Source: Candidatus Methylomirabilota bacterium
GTDB taxonomy: Bacteria; Methylomirabilota; Methylomirabilia; Methylomirabilales; Methylomirabilaceae
NCBI GenBank assembly: GCA_028870115.1
Contig: JAGWQH010000047.1
Span: forward strand, 1 to 60,370
Length of the DNA stretch: 60,370 bases
Reading direction: 5' to 3'
The notes under the pieces were generated by a model. The model was not told where the DNA came from. It ran no database searches and saw nothing but the letters and a program-made list of their open reading frames with translations. The position numbers were made by a program, and so were the translations under genes. Below, one piece after another: positions 5,805-60,112 of this stretch (position 1 is the first letter of the stretch; each line of letters starts with the position of its first letter).

Positions 5805-5977
5805 GCCAACTCAGATGATCACAGTGAGCAACATCAAGTTGGCACACACACGTTATTCCGCCTGCCTGTGCGTCTCCGCACGCAGACAGGTGCGTGGCGA
5901 GCCTGCCTCGCACGTAATACGGGGGAATCCAGTCAGGCTCTCTGGATACCGGCTTTCGCCGGTATGACGAACTCGCG
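5805..5977 (+). repeat. 171-bp direct repeat, copy B
   Basis: Matches 1881-2052 in the same orientation with scattered substitutions, including the REP-like core at the end. It lies just downstream of the broken FitB-like toxin remnant (6010-6096). No gene is seen in 5686-6009. Confidence 0.9.
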
Positions 5978-39442: not shown

Positions 39443-39490
39443 GAAATCCCCCCGTGCCCCCCTTTATCAAAGGGGGGTTGGGGGGAACTG
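39443..39490. repeat. G/C-rich palindrome, family B
   Basis: GAAATCCCCCCGTGCCCCCC-TTTATCAAA-GGGGGGTTGGGGGG, between nuoD and nuoE, 13 bp before the nuoE start. Confidence 0.85.
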
Positions 39491-42857: not shown

Positions 42858-42905
42858 AAAATCCCCCCCAACCCCCCTTTATTAAAGGGGGGTTGGGGAG
42901 ATTTG
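42858..42905. repeat. G/C-rich palindrome, family B
   Basis: AAAATCCCCCCCAACCCCCC-TTTATTAAA-GGGGGGTTGGGGAGATTT between nuoJ and nuoK of the second cluster. Confidence 0.85.
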
Positions 42906-54996: not shown

Positions 54997-55028
54997 ACCC
55001 AACGGCGTTGTTCATGCATTTCTTCCTT

Positions 55029-55058
55029 GACACTTCCAGACGCTTTCCGATACAAGAC
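55029..55058 (+). promoter_or_regulatory. promoter of mfnB
   Basis: TTGACA (55029-55034) and TACAAG (55053-55058), 18 bp apart, about 40 bp before the mfnB ATG. Confidence 0.45.
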
Positions 55059-55097
55059 AACGGTTACGCGTGAAGGCACAGCTTTGGGAGAAGTGCG

Positions 55098-55865
55098 ATG
55101 AAACTCATGATCAGTGTGCGGGACGAGCAAGAGGCGATAGCTGCGTTGGCTGGGGGAGCCGATATCGTCGATGTGAAGAACCCGGCCGAGGGATCGCTGG
55201 GCGCCGGGCGGCCGGAGACCATCGCGGCAATCGTAAGAACTGTCCGGGCTGCTGTCCCTGTCAGCGCATCGATCGGCGACGTCCCAAATCTTCCGGGGAC
55301 CGTGGCACTTGCCGGCTTGGGAGCGGCCGCCTGCGGTGTTCGACTCGTCAAGGTGGGACTGCTGGGGGCTCGGACAGGAGCGGAGGCGGCCAACCTGCTC
55401 GATGCCGTCAGCAGCGCGTTACGAATGGCGAATGGCACAGTGGGTCTGGTAGCCTGCGCCTACGCTGATGCCGCCCTCGTTGGTTCGCTCGATCCGCTTG
55501 AGCTTCCTGATGCCGCCGCCCCCTTTGTCGAAGGGTGCCTGATCGATACCGCCATCAAAGACGGACGGACGCTCTTTCAGTGCCTCCCGGAGGACGCCAT
55601 CAGCCGCTTTGTTCAGCAGTGTCACGATCGGGGGCTCTTTTGTGGCTTGGCGGGTTCTCTACAGCAGGCGGATCTCTCCAGAGCCCTGGCACTTGGCGCC
55701 GACATTGTCGGCGTACGAACTGCGGCCTGTGAGGGAGGACAACGAAGCGGCTCCGTTTCCACGACGTTGGTGGAACGCCTGAAGGCGACTGTGTCTTTGC
55801 ATATCAAATCCCCCCCAGCCCCCCTTTTGCAAAGGGGGGCTGGGGGGGATTTGCGCTCCGCGTAA
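55098..55865 (+). CDS. mfnB: (5-formylfuran-3-yl)methyl phosphate synthase
   Basis: A 255-residue MfnB (DUF556), a TIM-barrel aldolase-like enzyme that makes the furan phosphate of methanofuran from glyceraldehyde-3-phosphate. DIVDVKNPAEGSLGA has K27, and TAIKDGRTLF has K154, the lysines expected in the active site. Bacteria using the methanofuran/tetrahydromethanopterin C1 route carry it. The last 20 or so residues (SPPAPLLQRGAGGDL) are encoded by a palindromic repeat and are not part of the family. Confidence 0.9.
   Translation: MKLMISVRDEQEAIAALAGGADIVDVKNPAEGSLGAGRPETIAAIVRTVRAAVPVSASIGDVPNLPGTVALAGLGAAACGVRLVKVGLLGARTGAEAANLLDAVSSALRMANGTVGLVACAYADAALVGSLDPLELPDAAAPFVEGCLIDTAIKDGRTLFQCLPEDAISRFVQQCHDRGLFCGLAGSLQQADLSRALALGADIVGVRTAACEGGQRSGSVSTTLVERLKATVSLHIKSPPAPLLQRGAGGDLRSA
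55804..55853. repeat. G/C-rich palindrome, family B, used as coding DNA
   Basis: CAAATCCCCCCCAGCCCCCC-TTTTGCAAA-GGGGGGCTGGGGGGGAT. It forms the 3' end of both mfnB (plus) and the kinase gene (minus), which overlap here for 62 bp. Confidence 0.88.
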
Positions 55866-56517
55866 CCACACACGTCCCTACCGTTCTCCTGCATTCCAGC
55901 CACTCCTTGACACGAGCCGGATGCGTCCCATTGATGATCCAGCAGCAGTCGATCCCGTTCAGCCACCTGGCAAACTCTCGATCCACGCCGCTGTAACGCG
56001 AGAGGTGTGGGCGCGTGATGTACGGCAGCAGGGGCGCCGACGGGTCAACCGTCGGATCGCGTGCGAAGATCCCATCTACAGACTTCAGCAGCAGCAAGGC
56101 ATCCGCTCCAACACGTCCAGCAATATAGGCGGCGATCGAATCCGAGGTGACACCCCAGGAATGTGCAAAGGGATCGTGGCGAAAAAGGGATCGTGAGGGG
56201 AGATAGACCGGAAGTTGGCTGCTCCGGATCACCTCTATGACCTGATTCAAGCTGGAGGCCGGCGCAGCCTGTGTGGCGAGGTCACAAAGCTCAAGACCAT
56301 ACTGATCCATCGCCAGGATAGCCATCCGGTGCGCGGCGTGATCGGTGAGTCGCACTCGGCGATACTCTGCCCGCACTAGGTCGGCAAACACCCCGCCACC
56401 CGGAATCACTAATGCGTTGGCAGTACCCTTCCACCGCTGGATGGAATCGAGCAGCTTCCCCAGCCCGCCCCACTTTCCTAGGCTCCCACCCACCTTGATA
56501 ACGACGTCGATCTTCAT
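55804..56517 (-). CDS. mfnE: amino-acid-kinase-family protein, probable MfnE kinase
   Basis: A 237-residue kinase-fold protein. VIKVGGSLGKWGGLGKLLDS is the glycine-rich start, VIPGGGVFADLVR and LLLLKSVDGIFARDP follow, as in the small kinase that phosphorylates the aminomethylfuran phosphate in methanofuran synthesis. Pairing with mfnB supports this. The C-terminal PPQPPFAKGGLGG comes from the palindrome shared with mfnB. Other amino-acid kinases remain possible. Confidence 0.82.
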   Translation of the reverse strand: MKIDVVIKVGGSLGKWGGLGKLLDSIQRWKGTANALVIPGGGVFADLVRAEYRRVRLTDHAAHRMAILAMDQYGLELCDLATQAAPASSLNQVIEVIRSSQLPVYLPSRSLFRHDPFAHSWGVTSDSIAAYIAGRVGADALLLLKSVDGIFARDPTVDPSAPLLPYITRPHLSRYSGVDREFARWLNGIDCCWIINGTHPARVKEWLECRRTVGTCVVTRSANPPQPPFAKGGLGGI

Positions 56518-56633
56518 GATTCAGCTCGCAGTGGTCAGCTTCCAGTGCTCCATCCGCGGATTGCATATGAGGCGTCTCAAATTGGGAACTCCGTGACTTG
56601 AATCTACCAGGGTTCATGCCCCGCGGCTTACCG

Positions 56634-56705
56634 CGAGTTCGTCATACCGGCGAAAGCCGGTATCCAGAAGGTCCGATTGGATTCCGTGTCAAGCACGGAA
56701 TGACG
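56634..56705 (-). repeat. REP-like element (VIPAKAGIQ type)
   Basis: GTCATACCGGCGAAAGCCGG then TATCCAG, followed by ATTCCGTG-N6-CACGGAAT. It is the inverted relative of the cores in 1881-2052 and 5805-5977. The gap 56518-57108 otherwise holds only repeats. Confidence 0.85.
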
Positions 56706-56875
56706 GGCCAGAACAGAAGACAAGACCCCGTAGCTTGCTGCGGGGTAGTTCATTATTAATCATTTGTTGGCTGTAATGAAACCTTATAGTTTACGTCAAG
56801 CTATTGTTTCGTCTTGACCGTGTCTAACAATCTGTGCTGTACTTATCCGTCCATCGGATAATCGGTTCCCCCTTT

Positions 56876-56950
56876 CCTCCGCTCCGGGAGAACCAGGGGC
56901 GCGAAACCGACCGCTACGCGGGGGCTGAGCCCTGCGTTAGACAGCACACC
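56876..56950 (+). repeat. dispersed repeat, copy 1 (second at 60038-60112)
   Basis: CCTCCGCTC, GGGAGAACCAGG and GCCCTGCGTT are shared with 60038-60112 in the same orientation, with scattered changes over about 63 bp. They bracket the transposase remnant and protease gene. Confidence 0.75.
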
Positions 56951-56994
56951 GACCACCAGTCAAGGGGACAAGAAAACCATGGGAAAAATTAATG

Positions 56995-57052
56995 GGGTCG
57001 GGCCACGGCAAGTATCTGATATCGGATCGAATAGTGCTGAAGTGACCCCATG
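56995..57052 (+). repeat. inverted repeat before RAYT remnant
   Basis: TGGGGTC (56995-57001) and GACCCCA (57046-57052) frame 44 bp just upstream of the transposase remnant. REP-associated transposases are typically flanked by such hairpins. Confidence 0.6.
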
Positions 57053-57108: not shown

Positions 57109-57405
57109 ATGGCGAGAGCGAAGCGACATTATATTCCAGGCTATATCTGGCATATCACCCATCGATGCAATAAGAGAGAATTCCTCCTCAAGGAGGAATG
57201 GACGGGCAGTATCGCGGTGGGGAGCAGACCCTTTGCTGAGAAGGTGAAAGCACTTTTGGGCTTTCGAGCCAAAGGGAGAGAAGTGATAGAAGGCGGTGAA
57301 GAATATCAGGTCCGGGAGGGACCGGCTCTGTATAACGCTCTTTTCGGGGCCGAAAAAGAGGATATAGGCCCTGAAAACACCTATCTTTGGAACGTTAAAC
57401 CATAA
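57109..57405 (+). pseudogene. REP-associated tyrosine transposase, internally deleted
   Basis: A 98-residue frame. The first 27 residues (ARAKRHYIPGYIWHITHRCN, KREFLLK) are the start of a Y1 transposase of the RAYT type. The rest (WTGSIAVGSRPFAEKVKALL, then GPENTYLWNV) matches its C-terminal tail. The middle, including the catalytic HUH and tyrosine, is missing without a frame change at about 57190. It is inactive but still an open frame. The full-length protein would be over 200 residues. Confidence 0.8.
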
Positions 57406-60037: not shown

Positions 60038-60112
60038 GTCCTCCGCTCTGGGAGAACCAGGAGCACGAAATCGACCGCTTCGCGGCGGCTCGGCCCTGCG
60101 TTCGGCCTCAAA
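60038..60112 (+). repeat. dispersed repeat, copy 2
   Basis: Second copy of the element at 56876-56950 (same orientation). Confidence 0.75.

Follow-up and report, generated by a model that had tools for sequence, protein, structure and literature searches.

Here, we describe a tail-to-tail gene junction in a 60,370-nucleotide contig of a Candidatus Methylomirabilota bacterium (the window; its genome is referred to as G000), at which a copy of a dispersed palindromic repeat, family B, lies in the overlap of an mfnB-like and an mfnE-like gene. The features of the junction are as follows:

55098..55865, plus strand: mfnB-like gene, ORF of 255 aa, (5-formylfuran-3-yl)methyl phosphate synthase family
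55804..56517, minus strand: mfnE-like gene, ORF of 237 aa, amino-acid-kinase fold (PF00696)
55804..55865: tail-to-tail overlap of mfnB and mfnE, 62 bp, from the ORF list
55805..55853: family-B palindrome, 49 bp, no stop codon in any of the six frames
55828..55830: loop of the palindrome, CAA (Q) in the mfnB frame
55854..55862, plus strand: CGCTCCGCG, common to the element-free genomes G003 and G004, the last unit of their 7-nt-periodic spacer
55863..55865, plus strand: mfnB stop codon (TAA), beyond the palindrome; mfnB of the element-free G003 and G004 stops at the same position
55804..55806, minus strand: mfnE stop codon TGA, across the outer edge of the palindrome

A preliminary description of this DNA reported that the convergent genes share 62 bp, and the two ORFs share exactly 55804-55865. 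It also equated the overlap with the palindrome; a palindrome is present, but it makes up 49 of the 62 bases, so the equation was slightly generous. The palindrome consists of two arms of 23 nt each (55805-55827 and 55831-55853), which are 100% complementary and separated by 3 nt. MfnB residues 237-252 (KSPPAPLLQRGAGGDL) are coded wholly within the palindrome and are followed by RSA and the stop codon, which begins 10 nt past the palindrome; MfnE residues 223-237 (NPPQPPFAKGGLGGI) are likewise coded wholly within it and are followed by the stop codon. As first described, the repeat supplies the C-terminal tails of both proteins, and the tail peptides quoted at the time are right on both strands; they differ from each other because the two genes use different frames of the repeat.

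Two perfect hairpins with arms of at least 13 nt and loops of 3-8 nt occur in the window, namely the junction palindrome and one at 42866-42898, and none occurred in any of five shuffles of the window by non-overlapping dinucleotides. Based on a simple codon-usage model, which served as gene caller for the classification of both junctions and repeat copies, the 62-bp overlap is the longest among 29 convergent junctions in the window and 40 fetched regions, of which four overlap at all. Six-frame openness is shared by 637 of 8618 49-mers of the window and by four of 21 family-B copies in G000, the junction copy included, while 17 of the 21 have a stop codon in at least one frame. Openness is, therefore, a property of the junction copy and not of the family, and we rejected it as a selected family trait because it is found in these four copies only. 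Two more family-B copies lie near positions 39458 and 42873 of the window. The window also contains a second palindromic repeat, GTCATACCGGCGAAAGCCGGTATCCAG, in three copies (56641-56667, 5942-5968, and 2017-2043); six CRISPR-like direct repeats with a 66-nt spacing at 9-385, diverged copies of which occur singly as far as 4859; and a 64-nt direct repeat (56875-56938 and 60039-60102), the copies of which are 88% identical and 3.2 kb apart.

MfnB matches PF04476 over residues 3-228 (E 1.6e-69, above the Pfam cut-off), and its solved homologue PDB 4rc1 aligns to residues 2-230. The best NCBIfam model for MfnE is NF040622 over residues 6-216 (E 1.8e-33; 116 bits, with the cut-off at 300), and the solved homologue PDB 7qrh aligns to residues 6-207. 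MfnB also scores under the NCBIfam equivalog cut-offs, and we regard the names mfnB and mfnE as good guesses rather than formal equivalog calls. The conserved matches stop at residues 228-232 in MfnB and 207-216 in MfnE and, judged by these alignments, both palindrome-coded tails lie past the conserved domains. In the predicted model of MfnB, the last helix spans residues 222-234 and residues 245-255 have a pLDDT below 50, so that the tail is predicted to be disordered. In that of MfnE, which is poor overall (mean pLDDT 52), the last strand spans residues 215-219 and the tail (residues 221-237) has a pLDDT below 50.

We compared 16 mfnB loci, all of them from MAG assemblies, and mfnE lies convergently alongside in 15. 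In the remaining one, that of G001, no mfnE was found in the mfnB locus and other sequence follows directly after the palindrome; from about position 2260, this contig departs from mfnE synteny at the family-B copy, either by a rearrangement at the repeat or by misassembly. A family-B element is present at the junction in G000, G009, and G001. The preliminary description proposed to look for the same tails in relatives without the element; none of the 11 element-free congeners with both genes has them, and the claim is not refuted. In contrast, its implication that the palindrome accounts for the overlap does not hold: mfnB and mfnE overlap in six of these 11 congeners (by 29 bp in G003, G004, and G014, 45 bp in G011, 74 bp in G012, and 80 bp in G002) and, without the palindrome, by 51 and 90 bp in the two order-level relatives found. 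Such long overlaps argue that overlapping is a habit of the mfnB/mfnE pair and not the work of the palindrome. In the other five element-free congeners, the two genes do not overlap and are separated by gaps of 6-25 bp.

The ends of the genes vary with the lineage. In G003 and G004, mfnB ends in CGC TCC GCG and a stop codon, and identical codons come after the palindrome in the window; by this alignment, mfnB of the window retains the stop position of its element-free relatives. The CAA codon in the loop of the window's palindrome corresponds to TAA in G009 and G001, where mfnB stops within the element (SPCVPLL and SPCAPLL, respectively). Hence, a single loop base decides how far mfnB extends. 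The copy in G009 is a diverged family-B copy at the same place and ends both genes, with mfnE ending on the element (TKSPHPPFTKGGHRGI), and the copy in G001 ends mfnB. MfnE of G002, G008, and G011 ends at, or at most one residue past, VVSR, VVMR, and VAVR. The elements in G009 and G001 differ from each other at one of 46 bases, and the window's element differs from them by six and five mismatches, respectively, and one gap. In a phylogenetic tree, the three carriers of the element are placed apart, and G004, which has no element, is the sister of G009, which has one (support 0.957); support at the deeper nodes of this tree is weak (0.225-0.77), and two of the four genes are not represented for every genome. 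Because the G009 and G001 copies are so similar although these genomes are not sisters in the tree, it is possible that the element was ancestral and has been lost repeatedly. The spacer differs in every lineage, and therefore no two genomes form a clean before/after pair.

The best-matching named records belong to Candidatus Methylomirabilis; the genus of the window is presumably the same. The strict core of family B, CCCCCTTT-N(1-10)-AAAGGGGG, is present in 12 of the 15 genomes of the genus, with 4 (G004) to 119 (G009) copies each; the window's genome has 27, versus none for the reversed pattern. A longer family-B pattern was likewise found in 12 of these 15 genomes, in 7 of 20 further genomes from the order, and in 0 of 25 from the class. 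Of 38 elements whose ends are clear, 26 are 46 nt long, and the others measure 45-51 nt. We classified 19 copies in G000 (from 21 loci of best matches, in a genome with 27 strict cores) and 81 copies in G005 (from 38 fetched regions). Five of the 19 copies in G000 and eight of the 81 in G005 lie inside called ORFs; by the simple gene caller, 69 of the G005 copies are intergenic, and three of the 81 form one tail. Among the 100 classified copies of the two genomes, a double tail is formed by one, the junction copy in G000.

The idea that the repeat had been captured as coding sequence in two enzymes stands as far as the double tail is concerned, but in-frame copies also occur in QueA, PyrK, TrpD, and TsaD, the first three of which were named by structure-database matches. 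Compared with PDB 1vky, QueA of G000 has a 21-residue family-B insert (GTKSPHSPFTKGGYGGIWGAE). PyrK of G000, checked against a solved homologue, has two family-B copies, and TrpD of G005 continues past its fold (residue 348) and ends in HFKSPQPPFDKGGRGGI, with residues 349-365 derived from family B. The in-frame copy in TsaD, a protein we take to be such from a motif, was judged against congeners; the remaining host proteins of coding copies are presumably those suggested by motif or by eye. The recurrent family-B peptide is of the type NPPxPPFxKGGxGGF/I. From these translations, coding capture is not special to the mfnB/mfnE junction.

Y1 transposases are present in 10 of the 15 genomes, and cores in 10 of 10 Y1-positive and 2 of 5 Y1-negative genomes, a comparison that includes incomplete genomes and shared ancestry. 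A strict core was found in 0 of 20 fetched Y1-transposase loci, and a search for a consistent flanking repeat at Y1 transposases, which would mark a candidate mobilising enzyme, found none. An 18-kb region of G009 (C13:82500-100500; L131) has nine cores among four Y1 matches; here, paired family-B variants are repeated among Y1-transposase genes, one of which appears to be interrupted by a pair. In the window, an ORF at 57109-57405 (MARAKRHYIPGYIWHITHRCNKREFLLKEEW...), 0.6 kb beyond mfnE, resembles, by motif, the start of a REP-associated tyrosine transposase (RAYT) and is probably a remnant.

From the sequence of the junction, its repeat family, and the variable tails and spacers, all of which are observed directly, we infer that one copy of the dispersed repeat landed in the variable mfnB/mfnE spacer and became part of the coding sequence on either strand, an explanation that we hold with good confidence. 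According to this model, a small and presumably mobile palindrome of Candidatus Methylomirabilis and related genera would have inserted into a spacer that is dispensable for both enzymes. Several relatives already have shared coding sequence in this spacer, as both genes continue past their conserved domains to a stop codon. Because it has no stop codon in any of the six frames, the junction copy could be absorbed on both strands: mfnB would read through the palindrome to the stop codon that is also used by element-free relatives, and mfnE would end on the TGA at the far edge of the palindrome. The tails, if translated as predicted, lie past both folds and differ between species, and they are most likely tolerated passengers.

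The insertion may also be part of something broader. The spacer at the junction has 7 nt as its best period (of periods 3-12) in 9 of 13 congeners (z 1.7-6.6, at least 3.6 in six); in G000, G009, G002, and G011, another period is best. In the QueA loop, period 7 is best in 12 of 13 genomes, and the thirteenth, G000, has the family-B element (without G006 and G011, in which the QueA locus is split). In the TsaD loop, it is best in 14 of 14 genomes that fit the search motif, which the G002 locus does not, and the family-B element is again present in G000. These loop inserts are in frame and vary in sequence between species; we also observed that they are often hairpin-forming and that the 7-nt repeat unit varies per species and even per half. 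The junction, the QueA loop, and the TsaD loop look like hypervariable slots. In G005, 70 non-coding 42-nt flanks of family-B elements have a period-7 identity of 0.307, versus 0.263 for other intergenic sequence (standard deviation 0.010; reached by 0 of 1000 samples). When the left and right flanks of 38 elements, orthologous copies included, were compared at 30 lengths, identity peaked at 8, 15, 22, and 29 nt (z 3.4, 5.7, 2.3, and 4.3, respectively), i.e., at 7n+1; 25 nt also reached z 3.4, and 1 nt only z 1.8. These data are suggestive of elements landing inside 7-nt arrays in a preferred phase. Read as target-site duplications, the peaks at 8, 15, and 29 nt are indistinguishable from the 7-nt periodicity of the target. 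We speculate, tentatively and with more doubt than confidence, that fixed slots (surface loops and the mfnB-mfnE junction) are repeatedly rewritten in each species, usually with 7-nt arrays that often form hairpins and sometimes with family-B elements in a set phase; a 46-bp element with an 8-bp duplicated target would amount to 54 bp, or 18 codons, and landing in a gene would keep the frame. If this is true, such a system would write repeat peptides into proteins, and the double tail would be one of its products.

We also considered that the palindrome is kept as a two-way terminator or 3'-end stabiliser of the convergent pair and that the coding tails are a by-product, and the preliminary description held that the palindrome probably ends both transcripts. 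On either strand, the hairpin has a very stable fold (z −7.3 and −7.2), REPs favour sites downstream of genes and between convergent or co-directional genes (PMC3733652), and 11 of the 81 G005 copies lie between convergent genes. However, 48 of the 81 lie between co-directional and 10 between divergent genes, and several congeners (e.g., G002, G004, and G012) are without a comparable hairpin at the junction. Moreover, the stem is not followed by a U-run on either strand (the bases after it are CGCUCCGC and AUAUGCAA), and no terminator-like site, i.e., a G+C stem followed by a U-run, was found in 55000-56600, versus a mean of 1.0 in shuffles. Finally, because the mfnB stop codon begins 10 nt past the stem, a message ending at the hairpin would be without it, yielding a non-stop mfnB mRNA. 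Among 10 Rfam matches up to E 1 in 55000-57000, none reaches the gathering score (the best has 32.3 bits versus 90); in the nine with the highest scores, a miRNA family is matched by the hairpin. Altogether, the lack of a U-run and of a terminator-like site and the mfnB stop codon beyond the stem led us to reject termination as the main explanation, and we consider it unlikely that the palindrome is kept for the ends of the transcripts; it may still contribute to RNA stability.

It is less plausible still that the proline- and glycine-rich tails have been co-opted for a function in one or both enzymes: G000 retains open frames on both strands, and NPPxPPFxKGGxGG-type peptides recur in other proteins, but the sequence and length of the tails vary per lineage, MfnE of G002, G008, and G011 has nearly no tail, and the MfnB tail is predicted to be disordered. 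Equally, we give very little credence to an artefact of assembly or gene calling, in which the read-through stems from a repeat collapsed in a MAG or from a wrong base. In favour of an artefact, the assembly of this genome consists of 122 contigs, assemblies are prone to fail at repeats, and the G001 contig departs from mfn synteny right after its copy. Against it, the junction of the window lies within a single 60-kb contig that runs on into an intact mfnE, and in G009, a separate genome, both genes are present and a related copy occupies the same place.

The absorption of a repeat copy on both strands would mean that a single insertion of a palindrome, whose coding content is the same on either strand, can extend two proteins. 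In addition, housekeeping enzymes that contain dispersed palindromes and 7-nt arrays in frame would point to a little-described kind of protein change in nitrite-dependent methane oxidisers, and the in-frame 7-nt inserts in TsaD and QueA may outweigh the mfnB/mfnE finding. In such gene models, the final 15-20 residues stem from a repeat, and no conserved function should be read into them.

Among known systems, REP/RAYT elements resemble family B in being short, numerous, dispersed palindromes that are often paired and lie mostly between genes. Unlike them, family B lacks the GTAG or CGTC tag (of 38 distinct elements, one has GTAG and two have CGTC within 8 nt of an end). None of the 20 fetched Y1-transposase loci was found to hold a strict core. 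The Rickettsia palindromic elements (RPEs) are alike in that a palindrome lies in frame within unrelated conserved proteins, here QueA, PyrK, TrpD, and TsaD; in one account (PMC10969869), about half of the first-reported RPEs of R. conorii lie in ORFs. As elements, they differ in length (about 150 bp versus 46-51 bp for family B); unlike an RPE, the family-B junction copy serves two genes on opposite strands. The enterobacterial RU elements are small mobile repeats fused to ORFs, and their fusions in proteins of conserved superfamilies are C-terminal and may be neutral (Delihas 2007, PMC2759123); they measure 103-168 bp, belong to another phylum, and, in fusions described there, involve one gene per element. 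In Coxiella burnetii, an in-frame insertion of QMITE2 at the 3' end of the EnhC gene adds 33 C-terminal residues, with the stop codon just downstream (PMC5896051); unlike the junction copy of family B, QMITE2 is a MITE of 150-190 bp with direct repeats and affects one gene there. The heptameric G-rich repeats of Xanthomonas and Nostoc are dispersed 7-nt arrays that are reported to be under-represented in coding regions (PMC4692102); the 7-nt arrays in spacers and loops are alike, and those in QueA and TsaD differ in being coding. A literature search that covered few subscription papers yielded no account of a single copy at the ends of two convergent genes and none of family B in Methylomirabilis. 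Palindromic repeats of the REP, RPE, or MITE type that code for protein ends are already known, and the double tail is a variant of such events.
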